Shown here in pieces: positions 17,950 through 29,722 of a stretch of DNA of 37,243 nt. Positions within the stretch are counted from its first letter, which is position 1. Each line of letters begins with the position of its first letter. A program made the translations under genes and the position numbers. A model generated the notes under the pieces. It ran no database searches. It saw only the letters and a program-made list of their open reading frames with translations, and was not told the origin of the DNA. Location: the NCBI GenBank assembly GCA_902801375.1, contig CADCIB010000026.1, positions 1 through 37,243 of the forward strand. Direction: 5' to 3'. Source of the DNA: an uncultured Prevotellaceae bacterium. GTDB lineage: Bacteria; Bacteroidota; Bacteroidia; Bacteroidales; Bacteroidaceae.

Positions 17950-18006
17950 GGGTGTATCAAAACTCTGCCCCTACCTGTGGACTGCATTTAGTGTTTTGAC
18001 ACACCC
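17950..18006. mobile_element. Possible MITE-like remnant with 14-bp terminal inverted repeats
   Basis: GGGTGTATCAAAAC at the left and GTTTTGACACACCC at the right are inverted copies with one mismatch and bound a 57-bp segment with no coding capacity. The ends resemble terminal inverted repeats of small insertion elements. It could equally be a transcript hairpin after the aldo/keto reductase gene. No target-site duplication is obvious. Confidence 0.4.
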
Positions 18007-18055
18007 TCGAACATGGAAACTTGCTGATTGAAGCCAAAGCATAAGGAATAAGAGC

Positions 18056-18123
18056 AACTCCTTCCCTCCTCTGACTCCGTAGACAACAAAATGCTGCGGA
18101 GCCAGGGAGGGAAGGAGTTTTTT
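18056..18123 (+). terminator. Long rho-independent terminator after the PUL operon
   Basis: AACTCCTTCCCTCC pairs with GGAGGGAAGGAGTT (14 bp), with a second inner stem CTCCGTAG/CTGCGGAG, followed by a T run at 18118-18123. It is 143 bp after the aldo/keto reductase stop codon. The T run suits the plus strand; the opposite end also shows As, so it may work for the minus-strand antitoxin gene as well. Confidence 0.85.
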
Positions 18124-18171
18124 ACTCATTCAGCCGAATAAAAAAAATCGGTTCTGGTCATCTCACGGGTG

Positions 18172-18480
18172 TTATAGAATCGTTAGGCTTACCCTTCGTC
18201 CCAATCCATGGAATATCTTGAACAGGGTGGATACCTGTATGTCTGCATGACCATTCTCCACACGTGATATGTAGCTTTTCTTAGTACCAATCTTCTCGGC
18301 AAGCTGTTCTTGTGTAAGCCCTGCTTTCCGACGTTCTTCTTTCAAGTGCTCCCCCAAGATAAATGCATCTACCTCTGCATCAAATATCATTCTGATGGGA
18401 GTTCCTTCTGCACCAAAATCTTCTTCTATTAAATCTTCTATCGGCGTAAGATTCAATCTTTTCATTTCTACTCTTGTCAT
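18172..18480 (-). CDS. HigA-like antitoxin with XRE-type HTH
   Basis: A 102-aa protein. The C-terminal half is an XRE/Cro helix-turn-helix: LKEERRKAGLTQEQLAEKIG, then KKSYISRVENGHADIQVSTL. The N-terminal 40 residues are acidic, as in HigA-type antitoxins that wrap the toxin. Its ATG overlaps the TGA of the upstream toxin reading frame (ATGA), the usual toxin-first order of HigBA operons. It would bind HigB and repress the operon from the site near 18857. It looks intact although its toxin gene is broken. Confidence 0.85.
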   Translation of the reverse strand: MTRVEMKRLNLTPIEDLIEEDFGAEGTPIRMIFDAEVDAFILGEHLKEERRKAGLTQEQLAEKIGTKKSYISRVENGHADIQVSTLFKIFHGLGRRVSLTIL

Positions 18481-18840
18481 ATTATTTGCCCTTTCTTATT
18501 TTCAAAGTAATCTTTCATGATTCGTTTTGCCTTGTCAATCTCATTCTGCGGTGTCTTTTGCGATTTCTTTTGGAAGCCATTGAATAAGACAACAAGATTG
18601 CCCTCGTCAAAACAACAGAAAATCCGGAATATATTGCCCTCATCCTCAACCCTGATTTCGTAAAAGCCCAGACACTCCTGAAATGGATCTTAAGAATGAA
18701 ACTGGTACAACATCCAAGGTCATGATATAGAGGAAAACCTGGTATATTTTCTTCAAAGTCCGCAGGGACAAAGTCTTTTTGAACTCCTTAAAGTAGTCCT
18801 TGTATATTACCAACTGCCTTTTGTATTCTTTCTTTGACAT
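18477..18840 (-). pseudogene. Frameshifted HigB/RelE-like toxin gene
   Basis: Read from 18840, the first frame gives MSKKEYKRQLVIYKDYFKEF and runs to SISGVSGLLRNQG before an early stop at 18646. The next frame then continues as FYEIRVEDEGNIFRIFCCFD, LVVLFNGFQKKSQKTPQNEI and DKAKRIMKDYFENK to a TGA that overlaps the antitoxin ATG. Joined at about 18672-18680, the two parts make a full-length (about 120 aa) Gp49/HigB-type mRNA interferase. The total length is one base more than a multiple of three, so a single inserted base, perhaps in the GGG run, explains the break. Programmed frameshifting or a sequencing error are the alternatives. Confidence 0.8.
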
Positions 18841-18856
18841 GCATCTAAGTTTCCTG

Positions 18857-18864
18857 CAAAGGTA
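18857..18864 (-). promoter_or_regulatory. Bacteroidetes -7 promoter element for the toxin-antitoxin unit
   Basis: Reads TACCTTTG followed by CA on the minus strand, 16 bp upstream of the toxin start at 18840. Confidence 0.75.
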
Positions 18865-18953
18865 ACTAATTAGTAAACATTCTCCAAATTATTCTTCTAA
18901 AAAGTGCATGAAATAAATACTTTTAACACTTGTACCAGAAAAAGAAATCATTT

Positions 18954-21077
18954 CTACCAATGAATCTGAACGTGGACACCCTCAGGGTCGTTCTCGAAGC
19001 GCAGAAGCAGGGTGTGGCTGCCAGCATCCCATTGGTGGGTGCTGGCAGTAGTTGTTTGGATGGTCTTTGGCTCGCGGGGCAGCAGGATGCGCATCACATT
19101 GTCGGTGTTGAGGGGCGAACGGGCAACGAACGAGAAACTACGTCGACCGACAAGCTCGTTCTCCTGTCGCGAGGCGGCAGCAAGCACCTGCGGACGGCGA
19201 CGATGGCTCACCTTGTCGAGGTCGAGCAGGAAGGCTTGTTCACCAGGCATCACAACCTTCTCTCCTACTATGGGGAGCGACGGGTCGAAGAGGTCGATGA
19301 AGCGGCCGTTCAGCAGCAGAGGCTCATCGCTGACAGCTCCCTCGTCGACTACGGCAGCCATCAGGTAAGGTCCGCGCCGCAGCATGTAGTTGTTTTTTGT
19401 CTGAAGGCCTCCAGCAGCATTTTTCAGAACATCCAACAGCAGGCTTTCCAGCTCAGCATTCGCAGCAAACTCGCAAGGATTGGTTCTCAGCACGTAGATA
19501 TGCCCTCGGCCGAAACGGTAATGCCCGTCGGCAGGTGTTTCGGGCATGTTCATCAACGCGAAGAGATGCTGCGAGGGAGCCTCATAGTGAAAACCACCCT
19601 TGTTCCACCATTGGGAAATATGCTGAAACGCATCGTCGTCGCGCCCGCAATAGACGAGCGTACCGCCATCTTTCACCCATCGGGCGATGTGCTCATGGGC
19701 TTCGGGCTGGAGAGGTTTCATGTGGGCATAGCTCATCAGCAGGACGCTGACATCGCGCCACGTGTCCTCAAAGCCGACATTCTCCAAATGGGTGATACCC
19801 ACGGGGATGCCTCGCTTGACGAGTGGCAGGGTGAGCCCAAAGAAATTGGAAAGGCAGGAGTCGCGCAGCCCCTCAATGGGTTGCTGAAACATGATGGAAT
19901 TGGCCATAAGCACGCTGAAGCCCTGCTGTCCGCTGACGCGGTTGCGCGAGACAGGCATCTGCCCCAACGCGTTGATCATCACCTGCATCTGCGTGGAATA
20001 CGGACGCGGAATGAGGCTCTGCTCCTCGCTCTTGCCACTGACGCGATACAGCCGTTCGTAGATACGGTCGGGCCACGGCATCACCTCATAGTCGGCCACC
20101 GTGGGATAGAGCAACTGAGCCGTGAAAGTGGCCTGATAGTTGCGGCGATAGTCGTCCCAATCCACCACACCATCTTCGATAGGGTCGGTCAGGAAGAACA
20201 TTTTCCTACCCGTCAGGCGCGTCATCGATTCCATGCAACCATATTCCAGAAAAGCGGTCTCAAAGACACGTTCACGATGCCTGCCCTGGAAGAAATTCGC
20301 AGCCCGCGAGGTGCCCGTCCACACCTGGGCGATATAGCCGTCGCAGCTCTCCAACGAAGCCAACGACGCCTCTGGCGACACGATGCCCCACTGGGCATAA
20401 TTGATGAGCGAATGGGTGGGCACGTAGCAGCGCACGTTCATGCCCCGTTCGCGACCATAGCGCTTGGCGTAGGTGAAGACGCTGTCCAGCGCACGATAAT
20501 AGAGATGGTATTTCAGATGGTTCGAGAGATACATGTTCTCGGCCGACGCATGCTGAGGTCGCCAGTCGAAGCCATAATAGTCGCGCCACTCACGCTTGAA
20601 AGCCTCGCTGTAGCCGCCCCTCATCCAGAACTCAGGCTCCTCAAGGAAGAGGGCATCAATGCCTGCGTCGATGGCCGGTCGGATGTGCCGTTCGCACAAA
20701 TAGCGGAGATAGTTAAGCGTGGGAACAATGTAAGGTACCGATGGCCCGTGCATGATGGTGTCGCCCTGACGAGTCCGCTGCCCCTCGTCCATGTGTGGCC
20801 GCCCATCCCATTGGCCCGTGAAGTAGTCCTGATAGCCTCCCCAGGCAATGCCCGTCATGAAGTGGGTGGTATAGCCGTGATCGCGCCACGACTGCACACG
20901 TTGCCGGAAAGTGCGTTCCGGATGGTCGTTGGCACCATAGACCATCACCACATCGGCGCGCACATCGGTGGTGGGTTTCCACTGACTGCTTGTCTGGAAA
21001 GTGGTCTTCTCTCTCTGCGCAGCCACCTGTAAGGCAGCCATCAGGAGAAGCATCAGTACAAAGCTCTTCGTTTTCAT
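18954..21077 (-). CDS. Large exported protein, possible uncharacterised glycoside hydrolase with GATase-like domain
   Basis: A 707-aa protein with signal peptide MKTKSFVLMLLLMAALQVAAQ. The first 400 residues look like a (beta/alpha)8 barrel: VVMVYGANDHPERTF, the segment AGIDALFLEEPEFW with adjacent acidic residues that could be catalytic, and a later DYEVMPWPDRIYERLY. Residues about 390-560 resemble the class I glutamine-amidotransferase-like domain of GH42-type enzymes (DVSVLLMSYAHMKPL, HEHIARWVKDGGTLVYCGRDDDAF). The end is beta-rich (HTLLLRFENDPEGVHVQIHW). I cannot assign a known family. It has its own promoter at 21101 and faces the PUL. The methionine at 21077 begins the signal peptide, so upstream in-frame codons are ignored. 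Confidence 0.8.
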   Translation of the reverse strand: MKTKSFVLMLLLMAALQVAAQREKTTFQTSSQWKPTTDVRADVVMVYGANDHPERTFRQRVQSWRDHGYTTHFMTGIAWGGYQDYFTGQWDGRPHMDEGQRTRQGDTIMHGPSVPYIVPTLNYLRYLCERHIRPAIDAGIDALFLEEPEFWMRGGYSEAFKREWRDYYGFDWRPQHASAENMYLSNHLKYHLYYRALDSVFTYAKRYGRERGMNVRCYVPTHSLINYAQWGIVSPEASLASLESCDGYIAQVWTGTSRAANFFQGRHRERVFETAFLEYGCMESMTRLTGRKMFFLTDPIEDGVVDWDDYRRNYQATFTAQLLYPTVADYEVMPWPDRIYERLYRVSGKSEEQSLIPRPYSTQMQVMINALGQMPVSRNRVSGQQGFSVLMANSIMFQQPIEGLRDSCLSNFFGLTLPLVKRGIPVGITHLENVGFEDTWRDVSVLLMSYAHMKPLQPEAHEHIARWVKDGGTLVYCGRDDDAFQHISQWWNKGGFHYEAPSQHLFALMNMPETPADGHYRFGRGHIYVLRTNPCEFAANAELESLLLDVLKNAAGGLQTKNNYMLRRGPYLMAAVVDEGAVSDEPLLLNGRFIDLFDPSLPIVGEKVVMPGEQAFLLDLDKVSHRRRPQVLAAASRQENELVGRRSFSFVARSPLNTDNVMRILLPREPKTIQTTTASTHQWDAGSHTLLLRFENDPEGVHVQIHW

Positions 21078-21508: not shown

Positions 21509-21516
21509 TAATTTTG
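21509..21516 (+). promoter_or_regulatory. Bacteroidetes -7 promoter element for the structured leader and island operon
   Basis: TAATTTTG followed by CA matches TAnnTTTG. The first hairpin of the leader starts at 21521, so transcription probably begins near 21522. The methylase ATG is about 375 nt downstream. Confidence 0.7.
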
Positions 21517-21520
21517 CATC

Positions 21521-21896
21521 GTTCATATCCAAGCCTTATGGCTTAGGGATTGAACTGCGACATATTGGAAAGCGTCATTGATGCTTTGTTTTTGGCTATC
21601 TGAAACTTCCACAATACAGAAAACCAGTCAAGAACAATAGCAGAGATGAATGCTACGGGTGTAGTATATACTCCCGGAGTGTGCAGAGGGCTGAGAGTTC
21701 CCTCATGCACACTTTTCGGGGAGTTAATAATACTGACTAACGTGGGTATTCAAACTCTGTTCGTTCACTGGTTAGGCTGTGGAAGGCCCCAGATAGCAGG
21801 ACGAGCAGATGTGGATACCCCGTTTTTTGAATGCCGTTATCTGTTTATTAATCATCTGACTTATGGGTATCAGTCAGGATTAGTAATTACTGACCG
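21521..21896 (+). ncRNA. Highly structured leader RNA (or separate ncRNA) upstream of the methylase operon
   Basis: The segment has several strong complementary pairs. (1) 21521-21555: GTTCA, ATCC and AAGCC pair with GGCTT, GGAT and TGAAC around a TTAT loop. (2) 21569-21587: AAAGCGT/ATGCTTT. (3) 21670-21724: a long arm with ACTCCC/GGGAGT, AGTGTGCA/TGCACACT and GAGGG/CCCTC around CTGAGAGTT. (4) A long-range pair GGTATTCAAA (21745) with TTTGAATGCC (21826), ten pairs with one G-T, enclosing a smaller fold. (5) Near the methylase start, CTGAC/GTCAG (21856-21877) competes with a GGT-CAGT/ACTGACC pairing (21866-21895) next to the ATG. The fold is read by eye. I do not recognise a named RNA family. 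An 89-codon open frame (21646-21915) crosses the hairpins and looks like a by-product. Confidence 0.65.
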
Positions 21897-22850
21897 ATGC
21901 CTCAAAACACGGTAGTAAAGAATAGTTTTTTCGAAGCTAAGCCTTTTGTCAAATGGGCTGGTGGCAAGAGAAACCTACTTAAGAAGCTGGAAGCGCTGCT
22001 ACCTGCTCGTTTTGACGATCTTCAGGATGTAACTTATATTGAGCCTTTTGTCGGTGGAGGTGCGATGCTCTTCCACATGTTATATAATCATAAATGTATA
22101 AAACGAGCGGTCATCAATGATATAAACCAAGACCTTATTCATTGTTATCAACTGATAGCAAATACCCCCAATATTCTAATAGACAGACTGAGGATTATTG
22201 AGAACAATTATTATAGTGTTGGGTTCCCTTCAAGAAAGGAGTTGTATTATGCCTATCGTGACCAATATAATAGTGTTGGAGTTCATCCTGATGAACGGGC
22301 TGCCCTTTTTATTTTTTTGAATCATACTTGTTTTAATGGACTATATAGAGTGAATGCAGCAGGCAAATTCAATGTTCCATATGGACGATACAAAAAGCCA
22401 GTTATATGTAATGAAAAATTGATAATGGCAGACCATTATCTGCTTAATTCCGTTGAATTGGTCATTCGTCAGCCAGGCGACTATAAGTTTGTCAGAAATA
22501 ATCTCAGCAGGAAACATGTGAACTTTGCCTATTTTGATCCTCCCTATCGACCTTTAAGTGTTACATCGTCATTTAGGGAATACTCAAATAGTCCCTTTGG
22601 TGACAAACAACAGAATGAGTTAAAAGTGTTCTGTGACAATTTGTCAGCAAGAGATTGTCTGATTATGCTAAGCAATTCTGACAGCAAGACTGAATTTGGA
22701 GATTCGTATTTCGAGGCGTTATATGAGGGATATCATATTCAACGGATATTAGCGCCACGTTTTATTAATGCTTATGGTGAAAAACGTGAGCAATTGAAAG
22801 AAGTAGTTATCACAAATTATAATTGCCAAAAACATGCTGAAAAAAAATAA
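21897..22850 (+). CDS. D12-class (Dam-type) DNA N6-adenine methyltransferase
   Basis: A 317-aa methylase with the D12-class order of motifs: FVKWAGGKR (residues 17-25, binds SAM with the next motif), EPFVGGGAMLF (49-59), NDINQDLI, and catalytic DPPY at 214-217. Members such as Dam and M.DpnIIA methylate the adenine of GATC; the target here is unproven. It is the first gene of the AT-rich island operon and overlaps the helicase gene by 17 bp, implying translational coupling. As it sits with restriction-type genes, I infer that it marks self DNA. The start at 21897 lies directly after a possible RBS-masking hairpin of the leader. Confidence 0.93.
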   Translation: MPQNTVVKNSFFEAKPFVKWAGGKRNLLKKLEALLPARFDDLQDVTYIEPFVGGGAMLFHMLYNHKCIKRAVINDINQDLIHCYQLIANTPNILIDRLRIIENNYYSVGFPSRKELYYAYRDQYNSVGVHPDERAALFIFLNHTCFNGLYRVNAAGKFNVPYGRYKKPVICNEKLIMADHYLLNSVELVIRQPGDYKFVRNNLSRKHVNFAYFDPPYRPLSVTSSFREYSNSPFGDKQQNELKVFCDNLSARDCLIMLSNSDSKTEFGDSYFEALYEGYHIQRILAPRFINAYGEKREQLKEVVITNYNCQKHAEKK

Positions 22851-24885
22851 ATACAAACCCATTTATAGGACACATAAAGATTCAATTGATAAAGATTTTT
22901 ATGTTCCATGTTTTAGTGAAAGCATTAAGCTTAATAGAGCTGCTGGTTATTTTTCGCTTCACTCTTTAGTATTGTCAATTGATGGGATAATTAGGTTTAT
23001 ACGCAAAGGAGGTATAATAAATCTAATATGTAGCCCAGACCTTTCACAAGTTGACGCGGAACTTATTGATGCAAGTATAAGTCTTGACAAAGATCATATT
23101 ACGAAATCTTTATTAGAATGTATTATAGGGAAAGAACTCACTGATGAAGAACTGTTGCAGCTTGATATTGTATGCAATATGCTGACAGAAGGCAAATTGG
23201 TAATAAAGATTGCATATCAGCCCTTGGGTATATTCCATGAAAAGTTTGGTATTTTTATTGATGAAAAGAATAACAAAGTATATTTTAATGGTTCTCTAAA
23301 CGAGACAAAACGAGCTTTTGTTCACAATCAGGAAAGTATCCGAGTTAATTATTCTTGGCAGAGCGAATTCACATCAAGTTTTATAGAAAGTGAATTACGC
23401 TACTTTGACAGTTTATGGAATAACAAAGAAGAATCGGTTGTTGTAATTGATTTTCCGGAAGCAGTTGAAAAAGAACTATTGAGTTTTTACAAAAGAAGTG
23501 ATACTCTTGAGTCCGCAATAGACAATTATATCTCCACGCATATTACGAAAGGAAAGAAGACCCTCTACTCATATCAAGAAGAAGCCATCAGACAGTTTTG
23601 TGATAATGGATATCAACATTTTTATGAGATGGCTACAGGTACTGGAAAAACCTTTACTTCTGTCAAAACTATCCAAGTATTAGAGAATGCGTGTGAAGAG
23701 AATTTGTTTGTGGTCATTTGTGTTCCACAGGTAGATCTACAAATGCAATGGGCGAGAGCACTTAATGATGAGGGATACAATAAAGTATATTTGTTTGGTG
23801 GGAATGGAAAAGCGTTTGACCAAACAATAGCAGAAGCTACTATCGATTATTATTCTGGAGAAAGAAATGTGATATGTGTTGCGGTTTTTGATACTTTTTT
23901 CACAAAAGTGTATCATAGAATTAATCGCATAACATCCTTGTTTATAATCGTAGATGAGGCTCATAATCTGACTAAGAGTAATCTTTCAGCATTGGTTGAA
24001 CTCAATCCAAAATATAAACTAGGGCTTAGCGCGACCATTCAACGATTCAATGAAAGCGAATCTGAAGCAATTGCCAAATTCTTCACACCTGGCGATACGT
24101 TCTATTATGGCATTGAAGATGCTATTAATAATAACTTCCTGTCAAAATACGAATACCATCCAATCTTTGTGCATCTAAATGAAGATGAGAACGAAAAATT
24201 CTTATTCAAAAGCAAATTGCTTGCTCAAGAATTGAATAAGGAAGACCCTGATCCTGAAATTATAGACAAATTACGCCGAGAACGAAGTCTAATTCTGAAA
24301 CAGGCTGCCAATAAGTTAGTTAAATTAAAAGAATTGACAGAAGAAAGCTACAATTTCGTAAATTCTGTAGTCTATTGTGGTCAAGGAAAAGACAATGAAG
24401 GCGAGTCCATCATCGATTCTGTGACTAGAATTTTGTATGAAAAAGGTCTTGTCGTCTCACAGTTTACCAGCCATACGCAGGATCGCAAAAAAGTATTATA
24501 CGAATTTGAACATAGTTTCTTTGATACTTTGGTTGCCATAAAATGTTTTGACGAAGGTGTTGATGTTCCCAAACTTGACAAGATATATATTATGGCAAGT
24601 GATAGCGCACTCAGGCAGACCGTTCAACGTAGAGGCCGTGTATTGAGAAAATGCAAAGAAAGTGGTAAAACCATTGCCTACATCTACGATATGGTGGTGC
24701 TTCCTGCGATTGAAGCTGGTACATTCGGGTGTGAAGGGTTGCTTAAGATTGAACTTTCGCGGGCAAGAGAATACAATCGCCTAGCATTGAATAAGGAAGA
24801 AAATGAATTCGTATTCTGCGATATAGAGAATAAATACCATATAACAATAGATAATATCACTGACTATGAAACAGAACCCAATTGA
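22834..24885 (+). CDS. PLD-nuclease/SF2-helicase fusion resembling phosphorothioation-linked restriction enzyme
   Basis: A 683-aa protein. Residues 20-200 are a phospholipase-D-like nuclease domain with H135, K137, D143 and the G153-S154-x-N156 signature (FHEKFGIFID, NGSLNE). Residues 243-680 are a superfamily 2 helicase: YSYQEEAIRQF (Q-motif region), MATGTGKT (266-273), VDEAHN (373-378), LSAT (398-401), and QRRGRVLR from 598. The helicase part, including YYGIEDAINNNFLSKYEYHPIFVHL, reminds me strongly of the family annotated as DNA phosphorothioation system restriction enzyme; this is memory, not a search. I infer that it translocates on and cleaves unmodified or invading DNA. Only one HKD half-site is visible, so a dimer may form the nuclease site. 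The gene overlaps both neighbours. Confidence 0.9.
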   Translation: MLKKNKYKPIYRTHKDSIDKDFYVPCFSESIKLNRAAGYFSLHSLVLSIDGIIRFIRKGGIINLICSPDLSQVDAELIDASISLDKDHITKSLLECIIGKELTDEELLQLDIVCNMLTEGKLVIKIAYQPLGIFHEKFGIFIDEKNNKVYFNGSLNETKRAFVHNQESIRVNYSWQSEFTSSFIESELRYFDSLWNNKEESVVVIDFPEAVEKELLSFYKRSDTLESAIDNYISTHITKGKKTLYSYQEEAIRQFCDNGYQHFYEMATGTGKTFTSVKTIQVLENACEENLFVVICVPQVDLQMQWARALNDEGYNKVYLFGGNGKAFDQTIAEATIDYYSGERNVICVAVFDTFFTKVYHRINRITSLFIIVDEAHNLTKSNLSALVELNPKYKLGLSATIQRFNESESEAIAKFFTPGDTFYYGIEDAINNNFLSKYEYHPIFVHLNEDENEKFLFKSKLLAQELNKEDPDPEIIDKLRRERSLILKQAANKLVKLKELTEESYNFVNSVVYCGQGKDNEGESIIDSVTRILYEKGLVVSQFTSHTQDRKKVLYEFEHSFFDTLVAIKCFDEGVDVPKLDKIYIMASDSALRQTVQRRGRVLRKCKESGKTIAYIYDMVVLPAIEAGTFGCEGLLKIELSRAREYNRLALNKEENEFVFCDIENKYHITIDNITDYETEPN

Positions 24886-25039
24886 AGATGTTTTAGAAGA
24901 ACTTCATTTTACTGATGTTCAGAAAGAAGGTTTTTGGAAGTTCTTAAACTATGCCAAAACCTGTCAAGAAACAGGAAATAACAAACAGTTGAAATCACAG
25001 CTTGAAATGGTTGTGAAGGAAGTTGTTGCTAAATCTTAA
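24866..25039 (+). CDS. Small 57-aa protein between helicase and SMC ATPase
   Basis: The frame opens MKQNPIEDVLEELHFTDVQK and ends VVKEVVAKS. Its ATG lies 20 bp inside the end of the helicase gene in another frame, and its stop is 4 bp before the SMC start. The overlap and spacing match the rest of the operon, which supports real translation. It is predicted mostly helical with a single tryptophan and no known motif. It could be an adaptor subunit joining the helicase and ATPase; that is inference. Confidence 0.7.
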   Translation: MKQNPIEDVLEELHFTDVQKEGFWKFLNYAKTCQETGNNKQLKSQLEMVVKEVVAKS

Positions 25040-25043
25040 CGTC

Positions 25044-27146
25044 ATGAAGATCAATTATATCAAATATCATAACTACCGATGTTTTAAGGATGTTGTCATT
25101 CGATTTGACACGACTGAAAAGAAAAACATTTCACTTGTTTTAGGTGTCAATGGTTCTGGTAAAACAGAAATGTTGTTTTCTTTTCAGTGGGTGCTTTACG
25201 GTTTCGATTTTAAAAGCCTGCGTGAAAAAGAAGAAACGCCTTACTCTTTGAACTCGACTCTTTATCACCGACTCGAAGTTAATAAGCATGCAAATTCCGT
25301 TGATTGCTGGGTAGAACTTTCGTTTACGAACAAGGATAGTATTACAAATAATTGTATTGACTATTATGTAAAACGCACGGAAACTTTTATGCGTATAAAT
25401 GACAAAATTTCTTCAATGGTGAAAGTGGAGCTAAGCCATACAGAGCCGAATGGTGAGCGTACCACACCTGAGACAAACTTAGATGTGATTGAAGGATTGC
25501 TTTCAAGAATCATTCCAAAATCAATTTTAGAAGGGATTACTTTCGATGGTGAGCGAATGAAAAAGCTAAATTTCGTTGGTGAGCAATCGAAAGAAACCAT
25601 AAAAAACGTCATTTCTCTTGTAACCAACGAAAAGTTATTTGAACTGTGTACTGCAGAAATAAAGGATGTGAAATCTGATATTCACAAAATGCGTAAGCGA
25701 ATAAACAAAAGCAACGGAAATGTAACTGCAGAAGGATTGGAAAACGAAATAGTAGATCTGGAGGATGCGATAGAAGATAAAGAAATAGAACTAAGTGCAA
25801 TTTCAAAAAACAAAGAAAAAATAGAATCGAGAATAAATGAGATTTCTTTGAAGTTTTCACAACTTGAAGAGGCTCATAAACTCGAGCAAAAACGAAAAGG
25901 ATTAGAAAGAGATTTTGTTACAGCAAAAAAGCAATTTGAACAAAATACAGATTTGTTCTATAAACGACTTCTAGATGGATATGCATTAGTTACAGACAAA
26001 TTGGTTGAAGACGTAAAGAACTCAATTGAAAATGTCGATGTGCCAACAGGTCTTACTGTTGAAGCAGTTAGAAGCATTCTAAAAAGGCCCAAATGCATCT
26101 GTGGGCACGATATGGATGAAGAAGCCGTTAAAACACTTACTGATATGATTGCTGCTTTGCCACCTGACAATATTAGCAGTACGCTTCTTTATATGGCTAA
26201 TCAATTTGAGGGAGAAAAGAAAAGAGCAAAAAATGAACTCAAAGAGAGTTATAATGCAATGAAGAATAGCGAAGAAGAAGTAGCAAGGATTAAAAATGAA
26301 TTATCAGACATCTCTTCGTCGTTAATTTCAAATGTGTCAGAAACTATTAAACGACTTGAAATGGAGAGGAGGGAAAATGATGAGCAGATGGGGCGTTTGA
26401 AAGGAAATGAGGAAAGATGTAAGGCAACGATAGAGAGAGATAATAAGCGTCTTAAAGAGGCAAGGAAAGAACTTGAAGATGTATCTGATAATCAAGAACA
26501 GATTAAGGCTTTAGGTTCGGAGCAAGATGTTTTAGAACTATTCTCGAATGCAATAAAGAAGATTGGTGAGAGGAACAACGAGTTATCTTTAGAAAGCATT
26601 AATAGATACTTGACTGATGCCTACACACTATTGAGTGAAGATACTGGTCGGCGCATTTATCTGTGCCAATACAATAATAAGGAGAAATATCGATTGGTGA
26701 CTTATGTTAAGAGTAAATATGATGAATTGAAGTCTTCATGGATCAATAGCGGACGTATCAAAACACTTGAAGATGAAAATTTAAGTGAAAGTGAAATACA
26801 TGAGAGAATTGTTCTTGAGGTGGTTGAAGGTAAATCTACCGGACAGAGTAAGGTAAACTCACTAGCTTTTGCTAAAGCAATCTTAGACTACTCAAATGAA
26901 GATAGGACAACCGATAAACTAAGGGTTACACACGACTACCCATTCTTGATAGACTCACCCTTTACTGAATTGAGTGGAGAGAATCCGGCTAATGTGGCCA
27001 ATAACTTACACAGATTCGCCAATCAGATTATCCTTATGGCTGATGAAGTAAGCTACGGCGGAGTAGAAAGATGGGTATCTCCTTCTGTATGCTCAAAAAC
27101 AGAATTACTTAAAGATATGAATGAAGGTATAACATACATAAAATAA
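25044..27146 (+). CDS. DndD-like SMC/Rad50-type ATPase
   Basis: A 700-aa ATPase. The N-terminus MKINYIKYHNYRCFKDVVI and P-loop GVNGSGKT (residues 34-41) are of the Rad50/RecF/DndD type. A long coiled coil runs from about 210 to 560, interrupted at the apex by KCICGHD (C351, C353), a zinc-hook-like CxC rather than the usual CxxC. Toward the end are QSKVNSLAFAKAIL, in the place of the ABC signature, and Walker B YPFLIDSPF with D637, then an LSGENPANVANNLHRFANQI segment as in DndD. DndD works in phosphorothioate systems as a DNA-dependent ATPase. Here no other Dnd modification gene is present. The start at 25044 is preferred to an earlier in-frame codon at 25023 that overlaps the small gene. Confidence 0.88.
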   Translation: MKINYIKYHNYRCFKDVVIRFDTTEKKNISLVLGVNGSGKTEMLFSFQWVLYGFDFKSLREKEETPYSLNSTLYHRLEVNKHANSVDCWVELSFTNKDSITNNCIDYYVKRTETFMRINDKISSMVKVELSHTEPNGERTTPETNLDVIEGLLSRIIPKSILEGITFDGERMKKLNFVGEQSKETIKNVISLVTNEKLFELCTAEIKDVKSDIHKMRKRINKSNGNVTAEGLENEIVDLEDAIEDKEIELSAISKNKEKIESRINEISLKFSQLEEAHKLEQKRKGLERDFVTAKKQFEQNTDLFYKRLLDGYALVTDKLVEDVKNSIENVDVPTGLTVEAVRSILKRPKCICGHDMDEEAVKTLTDMIAALPPDNISSTLLYMANQFEGEKKRAKNELKESYNAMKNSEEEVARIKNELSDISSSLISNVSETIKRLEMERRENDEQMGRLKGNEERCKATIERDNKRLKEARKELEDVSDNQEQIKALGSEQDVLELFSNAIKKIGERNNELSLESINRYLTDAYTLLSEDTGRRIYLCQYNNKEKYRLVTYVKSKYDELKSSWINSGRIKTLEDENLSESEIHERIVLEVVEGKSTGQSKVNSLAFAKAILDYSNEDRTTDKLRVTHDYPFLIDSPFTELSGENPANVANNLHRFANQIILMADEVSYGGVERWVSPSVCSKTELLKDMNEGITYIK

Positions 27147-27151
27147 CGACT

Positions 27152-27607
27152 ATGCCAATCACTGTAGATAATACTTATCGTATAAATCGAAATCTCGACC
27201 AAGATGAACAAATGCGATATCTAGTGAGAGATCTTAAAATCTTCAACGGTTATCCGCAGATTTTGACCATTTCGGCTCTTATTGGATATGCTAATCATGC
27301 GTATGTGCCTTTCCAAAACAGGGCTGAACCTGTTCAAACTACATTCTTTGAAAACAGAGAAAAAGACATAATGATTTTTATGGCTTACTTGAAAGAAGGT
27401 AATCAAACGATACTTCGCGAGAAGCCAAAAGATGACCCCGATAGAAACAAAATGTACCAAGCTTTCGAGTATTATGCTAATGGAGGCTTCCCCATCTTAT
27501 GCAAAAAGTTAGGGGTTGATTTTCTTGATAAGAGCAAGAATGATAGATACACCATCCTGCACAATTATTATAACATGTTACTTTCAAACGATTTAATGGA
27601 TATTTAG
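27152..27607 (+). CDS. Protein resembling Dnd-system-associated protein 4
   Basis: A 151-aa protein that starts 5 bp after the SMC gene. The middle reads IFNGYPQILTISALIGYANHAYVPF and the end AFEYYANGGFPILCKKLG. This arrangement, with an early hydrophobic A-L-I-G-Y helix and a late Y-A-N-G-G, matches my memory of Dnd-system-associated protein 4, a small family found beside dnd genes. No catalytic motif is visible. In context it is probably a partner of the DndD-like ATPase. A profile search is the decisive test; until then the assignment is moderate. Confidence 0.65.
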   Translation: MPITVDNTYRINRNLDQDEQMRYLVRDLKIFNGYPQILTISALIGYANHAYVPFQNRAEPVQTTFFENREKDIMIFMAYLKEGNQTILREKPKDDPDRNKMYQAFEYYANGGFPILCKKLGVDFLDKSKNDRYTILHNYYNMLLSNDLMDI

Positions 27608-27612
27608 TCCCC

Positions 27613-28050
27613 ATGAAGAAACTACTTCCCCAGGCAAATACACTTGCAACAGTTATCAGAACATTCAAGCTGATTGGTAATACAAAGAATTGCACATTGA
27701 ATGATATTGCCAGTTTCAATGGATTTGATGTCCGGCAGGCTGCTTATTATTCGAAAGCTTGCTTCTTTCTGGACCTGATAGATGAGAACTTGAATCTTAC
27801 ACCATTAGGAATAGATATCATGCAGGAACCAAAGCGTGCCAAAGTCAGAATCTATGAGCAGATTATCAAGAATGAGTTGATTGGGCAGCTCTTTGCAAAG
27901 ACAGCTCTCTATTCTAAAAGAGTGGCGGTGAAAGAAGGTAAGGAAATTGTAAAGAATCTGTATCCAGAATATGGTGAAGCCGTTATTGATCGAAGAACTA
28001 AATGTTTGATAGGATGGTGTGAAGAGATTCTTGACTATCTGAAATCTTAG
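27613..28050 (+). CDS. Winged-helix-like protein of restriction-system type
   Basis: A 145-aa protein starting 5 bp after the preceding stop codon. Residues about 10-70 look like a winged helix: TLATVIRTFKLIG, TLNDIASFNGFDVRQAAYYSKACFFLDLI, then a LTPLGIDIM wing. The rest is helical and ends in EAVIDRRTKCLIGWCEEILDYL, a pattern I associate with small domains found in restriction-modification and phage-defence loci (a DUF7226-like domain, uncertain). It may bind DNA to control the operon or be a specificity subunit. It precedes the sigma-like gene by 10 bp. Confidence 0.6.
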   Translation: MKKLLPQANTLATVIRTFKLIGNTKNCTLNDIASFNGFDVRQAAYYSKACFFLDLIDENLNLTPLGIDIMQEPKRAKVRIYEQIIKNELIGQLFAKTALYSKRVAVKEGKEIVKNLYPEYGEAVIDRRTKCLIGWCEEILDYLKS

Positions 28051-28060
28051 GAAATTCACA

Positions 28061-29605
28061 ATGAGTGATTTAGAGAGAATTTATTCGTTGTTGTTGCATG
28101 GTAAAGGTCTTAGCATTCGGGCTATTTCAAAAGAGCTCAAATTGGACAAATACTATGTTGCAGAAATACTGTTCTCTGTACAAAATATTGCCTATTGGTT
28201 TCAAGACGATGATTCCTTATGGTATGCAAAAGAAGGTACAATGCAGATTGAGGAACATGAAGATGATAAACTTACATGTCCACTCAAAACGCCAAAGGTG
28301 TTTAGCATCGATCGGTATATTCAAGATCATTCAAGTTCTGCACTTCGTACATACTTACAACGCTTGTCATCATATAGAACATATTCTGATGAAGACATAG
28401 TAGAATTGTTTAGAATGTTTAGAAACGGTGATGAAAAAGCCTATGACTTAATTGTAAAAAGCCAACAAAAACTGGTTTTGGGCATAGCTAAACTATATAG
28501 AAAACACGATATTCCATTGGAGGATATTATCCAAGAAGGGAATGTTGGGCTAATTAAAGCCATTCAACGTTTTGACTATGAACATTTTCGCAGTTTTCCT
28601 AAATATGCAAAAGGGTGGATACTTCAAGCTATTTCAAATTCTATGACATACTTGCCATATATGATAAGATTACCTTTAAATCAATTACCTAATTATAGAA
28701 AAATACATAGATTTAAGGAAAAATATGAGCAATTGAATGGTTATGAACCTGCTATATATGATATAGAAATTGATGGGTTGGATAATAAAAAAATCGCCTG
28801 TCTGAGCAAGTTACCAGATAGGCTTAGTGAAATGACCATACAGGTTGATGATCTAGACGTTTTTGAAAGCCATTCGAACCCAACAATCGAGTTAATAGAG
28901 AAGGAGCATAATTCATATTTCATAAACGAACTGATTCATTGTTTGAACGAAAGAGAAGCTTTTATTATTAAAACGTATTTTGGTATTGGCAAGAAACAAA
29001 AAACTTTAGACTCCATAGGTGAATACCTCAACATAACACGTGAAAGGGCAAGACAAATTGCAGGTAGGTCTTTAAAAAAAATGCAAGAATATTCAGGTTT
29101 TCATGTAGAAACGATAAAAATCGGAGAATATATACAGTTATCTTCAACTGGCAGCATAGGAAGGGTAATTGATGTGAAGAAGACAGTCCTGGGCTCAACT
29201 CTGATTACATTAAGAATGAATGAAGGTCCTGTAAGAGAGATTGTCGAAGAAGAAACTTCGTTTATCGTTTTGAAAAATAATTACCAGCAGAAAGGAACAC
29301 CCCAATACCTACATAATAGTATAGTAGATGAAAATGGGTCGTCTATGCCTTTTTTTATGTTATCCTCAAAACAAGATTTGCAGCATGAAGAAACAGATTA
29401 TAATGACTTAGAAGTGGGAGACAAGATATATTATAAAAAAAGGTATTGCACTGTGAATAAAATAACAGGAAAAGGAAAGAACTCAAAACTTTATATCGAA
29501 TATGCTAATGGTGTAATGGATGTTGTGCTCAATAACAAATCAAGATACGAAAAGATATCTCATGATCGCGATTTAAATAAAAGCAATCACAAAAAAATGC
29601 GATAA
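28061..29605 (+). CDS. Sigma-70-family factor with N-terminal HTH and C-terminal beta-rich extension
   Basis: A 514-aa protein. Residues 1-60 contain a helix-turn-helix (GKGLSIRAISKELKLDKYYVAEIL). Residues 83-200 match sigma regions 1.2-2: SIDRYIQDH, YDLIVKSQQKLVLGIAKLYR, LEDIIQEGNVGLIKAIQRFD, then FPKYAKGWILQAIS. A region-3-like helix includes IRLPLNQLPNYRKIHRFKEKY. Region 4 is LNEREAFIIKTYFGIG and TLDSIGEYLNITRERARQI (to 333). Residues 355-514 are unlike sigma factors and appear to hold two small beta-barrel domains (IGEYIQLSSTGSIGRVIDV and VGDKIYYKKRYCTVNKITGK). It is the last gene of the island operon. It may redirect RNA polymerase to island or host promoters during infection; this is inference. 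Codon use and AT content match the island. Confidence 0.9.
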   Translation: MSDLERIYSLLLHGKGLSIRAISKELKLDKYYVAEILFSVQNIAYWFQDDDSLWYAKEGTMQIEEHEDDKLTCPLKTPKVFSIDRYIQDHSSSALRTYLQRLSSYRTYSDEDIVELFRMFRNGDEKAYDLIVKSQQKLVLGIAKLYRKHDIPLEDIIQEGNVGLIKAIQRFDYEHFRSFPKYAKGWILQAISNSMTYLPYMIRLPLNQLPNYRKIHRFKEKYEQLNGYEPAIYDIEIDGLDNKKIACLSKLPDRLSEMTIQVDDLDVFESHSNPTIELIEKEHNSYFINELIHCLNEREAFIIKTYFGIGKKQKTLDSIGEYLNITRERARQIAGRSLKKMQEYSGFHVETIKIGEYIQLSSTGSIGRVIDVKKTVLGSTLITLRMNEGPVREIVEEETSFIVLKNNYQQKGTPQYLHNSIVDENGSSMPFFMLSSKQDLQHEETDYNDLEVGDKIYYKKRYCTVNKITGKGKNSKLYIEYANGVMDVVLNNKSRYEKISHDRDLNKSNHKKMR

Positions 29606-29650
29606 AAAAGTAAGCATTCGAGCAAATACAGTTATCCCTCTATCAACAAT

Positions 29651-29688
29651 AACAGCAGCTACATCTTTTTCAGGTTGTAGCTGCTGTT
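29651..29688. terminator. Hairpin terminator between convergent sigma-like and exported-protein genes
   Basis: AACAGCAGCTACA pairs perfectly with TGTAGCTGCTGTT (13 bp) around a 12-nt loop. It lies between the stop codons of two convergent genes, and probably acts in both directions. The T tract on the plus side is weak. It also marks the switch from AT-rich to GC-rich DNA. Confidence 0.75.
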
Positions 29689-29722
29689 GTCATTTGTTCT
29701 ATCGAAAGCAGTCGATGGATGC

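Follow-up and report, generated by a model that had tools for sequence, protein, structure and literature searches.

Can a Pbe defence system without a match to the sulfur-transfer gene use adenine methylation as its self mark, and why does it include a protein of the sigma-70 family? Both questions are raised by a seven-gene cluster from an uncultured Prevotellaceae bacterium (assembly GCA_902801375.1, contig CADCIB010000026.1). The whole stretch of DNA analysed, here called the window, is 37,243 nucleotides long and makes up one entire contig (C26) of a genome with 57 contigs, a total of 3.48 Mb and a completeness of 96%. With moderate confidence, the cluster is regarded as an anti-phage system that resembles restriction, belongs to the Pbe (CxC ABC ATPase-DndE) kind and uses adenine methylation as its self mark. 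A methylase-paired Pbe core is known already; what appears to be new is the pairing with D12 and DUF7226 genes, the fixed and hypervariable sigma gene, and a leader RNA shared with other loci.

The open reading frame (ORF) listing of the window places all seven genes on the + strand. They encode a D12-class (Dam/DpnM-like) N6-adenine DNA methylase (21897-22850; TIGR00571, 2e-74; PF02086, 3e-50); PbeA, which joins a PLD (HKD) nuclease half to an SF2 helicase (22834-24885; PADLOC PbeA, 1.7e-171); a small protein of 57 amino acids in the PbeB position (24866-25039); PbeC, a CxC-type ABC ATPase (25023-27146; PADLOC PbeC, 1.6e-59); PbeD, or DNA phosphorothioation-associated protein 4 (27152-27607), which matches TIGR04062 (Dnd-associated protein 4; 1.1e-11) only below its cut-off; a DUF7226 protein (27613-28050; PF23871, 7e-14); and a sigma-70-family protein (28061-29605; PF04542, 1e-11; PF04545, 1e-9). 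Neighbouring ORFs overlap by 17-20 bp or else are separated by 5-10 bp. The ATG at 25044 is the likely start of pbeC, and would leave a 4-bp gap to the small-protein gene in place of the overlap. The GC content is 0.33-0.39 at 21-29 kb and 0.41 at 29-30 kb, against 0.52-0.59 for the bulk of the remaining window. A first-pass annotation of this DNA had described seven tightly packed same-strand genes in an AT-rich island, among them a methylase, a helicase-nuclease, a DndD-like protein and Dnd-associated protein 4. The ORF coordinates and GC profile agree with this layout, and the matches to the D12, PbeA, PbeC and (below cut-off) TIGR04062 profiles agree with the assignments.

Is the cluster inherited as a unit? 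A PbeA scan with one genome per species gave 144 loci, the best 80 of which were used. Ten close loci (L060-L069), with PbeA identities of 70-86%, carry the titles of Prevotella and other Bacteroidales, mostly rumen metagenome-assembled genomes (MAGs). All seven genes were found in unchanged order in the seven related loci that lie on sufficiently long contigs (7/7), which is more than chance would give; such co-occurrence was a check that the first-pass annotation had asked for. The remaining three end at contig edges within PbeD, PbeC or PbeA, and their order agrees up to there. The parts, their conserved order and the absence of a match to the sulfur-transfer gene can be read from the sequence. 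Among 301 family genomes surveyed, a PbeA belonging to the window's clade was found in the window's own genome, in G281 (70%) and in G222 (86% over 299 amino acids, interrupted by a contig end), with weaker PbeA matches in 21 further genomes. Among the eight complete clusters, identity averaged over all 28 pairs was 87.0% for the small protein, 84.2% for PbeD, 81.8% for the DUF7226 protein, 78.0% for PbeA, 77.4% for PbeC, 67.4% for the D12 methylase and 50.8% for the sigma protein. As a separate observation, locus L063 (CACYBS010000381.1), a piece of a Prevotella-type cluster with a PbeA identity of 81%, lies in a MAG labelled Erysipelothrix rhusiopathiae, which is probably a binning error, or else gene transfer.

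PbeA and PbeC retain the residues expected of them. The HKD, Walker A, DEAH and QRRGR motifs of PbeA are present in 10/10 full-length sequences, window included, and its match to TIGR04095 falls below that model's cut-off. PbeC, whose match to the DndD equivalog is likewise below cut-off, has the C-I-C hook (residue 358 in the window) and Walker A in 10/10 sequences and Walker B in 9/9 full-length sequences, the window being counted in both cases (cut proteins enter the motif counts without their ends). The small protein, matched by no PADLOC or NCBIfam model, was assigned by its size and its position between PbeA and PbeC; it is the product of the most conserved gene, being 80-100% identical among clusters. 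A cognate of DndE should have a ribbon-helix-helix fold, but a PbeD profile run against the PDB found no DndE; its matches, at E values of 0.2-0.7, were ferritins and one designed protein.

How much of this has been described? The core is like PbeABCD (PMC6459918) in its order of PbeA, small protein, ABC ATPase and a PbeD of about 150 amino acids, and the PADLOC models that fit it best are those of PbeA and PbeC. It differs in having no dndC match, a D12 gene in front, and DUF7226 and sigma genes behind. The CxC ABC ATPase-DndE systems of PMC10853773 likewise have an HKD and SF2 protein, a small protein, a CxC hook, a DndE cognate (a putative one in the window) and a linked DNA methylase; cytosine methylases and MTaX1 are named there, whereas the window has a D12 adenine methylase. 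In the main text of that paper 'D12' does not appear, and 'sigma' appears once, for a helix-turn-helix (HTH) insert in some DndH. According to Xiong et al. (2019; PMC6459918), 155 of the 320 solitary Pbe pairs have candidate base-modifying genes no more than 10 kb away, and the same paper raises Pbe-methylation pairing as a possibility. Methylation in place of phosphorothioation is therefore an already published idea, Dnd-free Pbe beside methylases appearing in both PMC6459918 and PMC10853773. The first-pass annotation had announced an undescribed system of Dnd-type restriction parts, an adenine methylase and a sigma factor. That combination is real and conserved, but 'undescribed' is ruled out, the four-gene core being the published PbeABCD. 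Its statement that DndE is absent needs correction, since the fifth protein corresponds to PbeD, which PMC10853773 equates with DndE, and its statement that a sigma factor belongs to no known defence system is overturned by MzaA (PMC9523054).

What would then mark the cell's own DNA? Archaeal Pbe requires phosphorothioation (PMC6459918), on which ground the cluster might be a solitary Pbe remnant awaiting phosphorothioation from elsewhere. This is highly improbable: the DndC (sulfur transfer) model gave 0 matches in the window's genome, which is 96% complete, and in nine related genomes nothing reached its cut-off (a single weak match, in G301, scored 26 of 290 bits), and the reading frames and motifs are intact. 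Of the DndCDEA modification set, and of dnd and ssp genes in general, the search covered DndC; within that scope it found no gene elsewhere in the genome that might, in the earlier account, supply phosphorothioation. The D12 gene adjoins pbeA in 10/10 close loci and overlaps it by 17 bp in the window. Among proteins of solved structure, DpnM was the nearest relative of its product (2dpm, 1.5e-49), and the window protein retains DPPY and the target loop FNGLYRVN...FNVPYGRY of the DpnM/Dam type. The loop pattern is off by one residue in L063 and does not hold in L060 and L062.

A second adenine methylase was found as the eighth gene, directly after the sigma gene, among the ORFs of L061, L062, L066 and L067, and L068 aligns with it at the DNA level; in L064, L065 and the window, no such gene follows the sigma gene. 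Among the 5000 records covered by a plasmid search, the L061 protein had its best match on pSRQ700 (56% over 59% of the query), where the matched gene and those of a D12 methylase and a type II endonuclease are arranged in tandem. We take this operon to be a DpnII-type system acting at GATC. Judged by homology, the target of the window methylase is likely GATC or a related site, because DpnM is its nearest solved relative, its loop is retained, relatives hold second methylases like that of pSRQ700, and archaeal Pbe is associated with phosphorothioation at GATC (PMC6459918). The cluster is thus like a DpnII-type restriction-modification system in its D12 methylase and in the second methylases of its relatives, and differs from one in that Pbe parts replace the restriction enzyme and the DUF7226 domain stands alone.

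The DUF7226 protein provides another link to restriction. It aligns with the C-terminal third of a 432-amino-acid DUF6996-DUF6997-DUF7226 protein of Oceanobacillus (L081:6662-7960). PADLOC assigns this protein to the type II restriction enzymes (6e-86), and a D12 gene lies beside its gene; by sequence, the sixth protein and the C-terminal domain of this predicted restriction enzyme are homologues. L081 also encodes a second DUF7226 protein, a solo one, whose gene lies a short way upstream of pbeA. With this arrangement, D12, solo DUF7226 and Pbe are combined in two phyla. Elsewhere beyond the close clade, a D12 gene directly precedes PbeA in L132, is found on the opposite strand within a few kb in L081 and L109, and gave a weak partial match near Pbe in L084. 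A DUF7226 profile found nothing meaningful in the PDB (a pentatricopeptide protein, E 0.41). The notion that the protein reads exactly the methylase's site was weakened, as the L061 and L062 DUF7226 proteins are 99% identical and their D12 proteins 77% identical with different target loops. The gene that follows PbeD in L081, at the place where other loci have a sigma gene, encodes a 727-amino-acid protein (L081:14735-16918) that gave several weak matches of HTH type and whose end is ribbon-helix-helix-like.

Past the parts list, we infer the mechanism. The DpnM-like methylase would mark the cell's own DNA at GATC or a related site; PbeC together with PbeD would scan DNA, helped in reading it by the restriction-enzyme-derived DUF7226 protein; and unmarked DNA would be attacked or blocked by the helicase and HKD nuclease of PbeA, with the small protein coupling or restraining the other parts. 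For the sigma-like protein, a role as the operon's own initiation factor seems less likely than one as a variable subunit for sensing or targeting, which would bind to RNA polymerase or to promoter-like DNA, a point of phage attack. Leader terminators would hold back expression started at a housekeeping-type promoter. Alternatively, Pbe could bring about triggered suicide or replication arrest, sensed through the small protein or the sigma protein, with the methylase merely a brake on self damage. A suicide alternative is put forward in PMC10853773, and archaeal Pbe stopped replication without cleavage (PMC6459918). The conserved HKD and helicase motifs and the methylase in all ten close loci speak against this alternative, neither point being decisive, and it is considered rather unlikely.

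What kind of protein is the sigma member? About 60 N-terminal residues that look HTH-like by eye are followed by a sigma core and a C-terminal extension of about 170 amino acids, which had no PDB match in a profile search and is missing in L064 and L065. Sigma-70 regions 2 and 4 both exceed their Pfam cut-offs, and the profile aligns with SigA chains from about position 91 to 350, from pre-region 2 through region 4, at normal spacing. The region-4 recognition helix TRERxRQI is intact in 8/8 sigmas. The WW pair of region 2 and the R that follows it have a role in sigma factors; the pair is retained in 0/8, the next R in 1/8 and L in 7/8. The eight cluster sigmas form one clade (97% support), separate from 12 sampled chromosomal sigmas (14 were intended; L003 and L232 gave no ORF). 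Sigma matches occur in at least 280 of the 301 family genomes, and the top-ranked whole-protein matches, among those listed, were confined to the window's genome and G281. No relative was confirmed among the viral contigs searched.

The sigma gene is the most variable of the cluster. In 300-bp windows, L061 and L062 are 91-99% identical at the DNA level from pbeA to the sigma start, fall to 73, 70, 54, 50 and 50% inside it, and recover to 86-87% at the following gene; a like fall inside the sigma gene was observed between L067 and L068, and both pairs of cassettes have an identity of 84-99% over the stretch that begins with pbeA and ends with the DUF7226 gene. In trees of the sigma core the clades L061+L062 (p = 0.0003) and L067+L068 (p = 0.016) are rejected, and the PbeA tree rejects L061+L067 (p = 0.00016), the pair joined by sigma; these tests used LG+G4, a simpler model, and clades chosen after the identity tables had been seen. 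As judged from these comparisons, sigma alleles have moved between lineages. For D12 alleles such exchange is not claimed: the grouping of the window D12 with those of L061, L062 and L064 was not rejected (p = 0.14), and the one sign of D12 exchange is that the DNA identity of L061 and L062 falls there.

The variability suggests a part in phage conflict rather than housekeeping. Tentatively, the captured sigma may be a hypervariable specificity or sensing subunit that watches phage-seized promoters or RNA polymerase and then brings in the Pbe helicase-nuclease, with the leader timing expression. It is also quite possible, although short of probable, that the protein simply regulates the operon or a small regulon, guiding RNA polymerase to the system's promoters on infection. 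A full sigma core with normally spaced regions and TRERxRQI in 8/8, a distance of 10 bp from the preceding gene, an N-terminal HTH-like part, and the difference of L061 and L062 both in the sigma core and in the DNA before the -7 box all suit a regulator. However, the operon's own -7 box is of the housekeeping type and common to 47/58 leaders elsewhere, the WW pair and following R of region 2 are largely lost, and the fastest-changing member of a cluster is unexpected for a regulator. On balance, and without proof, a part in conflict fits better than plain regulation.

Could the gene instead be a passenger acquired by one ancestor of the clade? It is the least conserved gene, and L064 and L065 lack the C-terminal extension, but its open frame is retained in 7/7 relatives and sigma-type proteins recur farther afield, so that a passenger seems quite improbable. 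A profile built from the sigmas of the window and five relatives, with those of L122 and L082, was run on 82 entries, including two duplicates (L058 of L066, L059 of L069); seven of its 20 matches are its own members. Of the 70 Pbe loci that are more distant, 12 have a match on the PbeA strand, with no match elsewhere in these loci at E 1e-3. In L082 and L122, a distant full sigma-like protein directly follows a 125-amino-acid protein in the PbeD position. In L122, Pfam matches upstream of PbeA reveal an N6/N4 methylase and an MTaX1 protein, and ORFs similar by eye to these upstream genes occur in L082. The other ten loci (L072, L093, L115, L116, L117, L125, L128, L129, L130 and L136), from diverse bacteria, encode proteins of 760-945 amino acids with sigma region 4 in PbeA orientation, several of which also have an RNA polymerase alpha-CTD-like domain. 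In a Pfam scan of 11 of the 12 distant loci (all but L130), region 4 is over the cut-off in ten and below it in L072. L136:1675-2535 appears sigma-like by eye and gave no match to the sigma profile.

A sigma-70-family member of another defence system, MzaA of MZA, is the sole PADLOC model matched by the window sigma (2.8e-29). Only roughly the final third of this model is covered by the match, with an NCBIfam E value of 1e-38 and 133 bits against a cut-off of 800. Of the MzaA-E gene set, only this partial match was found, in one of the seven genes; no other Mza model was among the matches listed for the seven proteins (for PbeC, the best 25 of 53).

How is the cluster expressed? A promoter box, TAnnTTTGC, lies at 21509-21517 (+), and has the consensus of the housekeeping-type Bacteroidota -7 element. 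It precedes 8/9 Pbe leaders (not that of L064) and 47/58 leaders elsewhere, compared with 3% of shuffled sequences. We infer that expression begins at a housekeeping-type promoter. Between the box and the D12 start is a structured 5' leader RNA of about 380 nucleotides (21518-21896, +), with a fold z-score of -6.3 against shuffled sequence. Terminator-like hairpins at 21569-21593, 21678-21716 and 21744-21828 are each followed by a T run and suggest transcription attenuation as their function, and a further hairpin (21866-21901) encloses the D12 start codon. Compensatory changes were observed in 14 of 49 consensus pairs over 24 sequences, in an alignment that excludes L168, L173, L179, L180 and L062. 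Rfam gave two chance-level matches far below gathering scores for the window leader and none for four other loci. In the alignment of relatives the leader lies upstream of D12 in 8/9, the exception being L065. The leaders of L061 and L062 are 97% identical outside a deletion. This deletion, in the L062 leader (L062:2072-2260; 87 gap positions compared with L061), takes out one terminator-like hairpin. An earlier idea that the promoter stays the same whichever sigma allele is present was dropped: these two loci have similar leaders and different DNA ahead of the -7 box.

The leader is far from confined to Pbe. Leader-like DNA is present in 65 of the 301 family genomes, own included, and only 3 of the 83 listed places are at Pbe clusters of the window's clade. 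With a covariance model of part of the leader, matches were found in the window's genome and, among 294 other genomes from the same order, in 7, under four further family codes. Of the 80 other places, 59 were sampled, excluding the 20 weakest and one at a contig end; L173, a partial match, was dropped to leave 58, and L168 and L218, with no downstream gene, to leave 56. Within the first two downstream genes, a DNA methylase was found in 28/56 leader loci and in 0/88 upstream or opposite-strand control ORFs. The methylase profiles were built partly from a first leader set (11/18 positive); an independent second set gave 17/38. The other half of the leader loci have no profile-recognised methylase downstream, and some of their genes are plainly not restriction genes. 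The leader RNA is a candidate common switch of restriction-modification genes in Bacteroidales. No printed description of the leader, of the solo DUF7226 protein or of a sigma member of Pbe systems was found in the open-licence literature, outside which most subscription journals lie.

Several points weigh against a methylation-marked restriction system with sigma as its variable subunit. The specificity of the D12 methylase is read from homology. Its target loop differs in L060 and L062, yet their PbeD proteins are 90-99% like that of L061, as is the L062 DUF7226 protein at 99%; this argues against PbeD and DUF7226 reading exactly the methylase's site. No DNA cleavage by archaeal Pbe was seen (PMC6459918). 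The mosaic is not limited to sigma, since D12 differs between L061 and L062 (DNA windows of 68-82%) and PbeC between L060 and L062 (72-76%). Finally, L061 and L062 have different DNA 5' of the -7 box (windows of 66% and 49%), and a promoter that follows its sigma is therefore conceivable.

Why does this locus matter? A compact Pbe cluster without a dndC match suits the question, from the 2019 and 2024 papers, of whether methylation can replace phosphorothioation, and also the question they left of whether Pbe cuts DNA. One relative of the locus is found in a sequenced strain, Prevotella sp. MA2016. Sigma-type proteins are recurrent and, here, fast-changing Pbe parts, which suggests that some defences monitor transcription.

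As to an empty insertion site, homologues of the cluster's 3' neighbour adjoin hutI in L145 and L146, where no homologue of the 5' neighbour was found. Other low-GC stretches of the window lie at 2-5 kb (0.43-0.48) and at 18-19 kb (0.397), the latter (18001-19000, 39.7% GC) being a short AT-rich stretch upstream of the cluster with GC-rich genes on either side.

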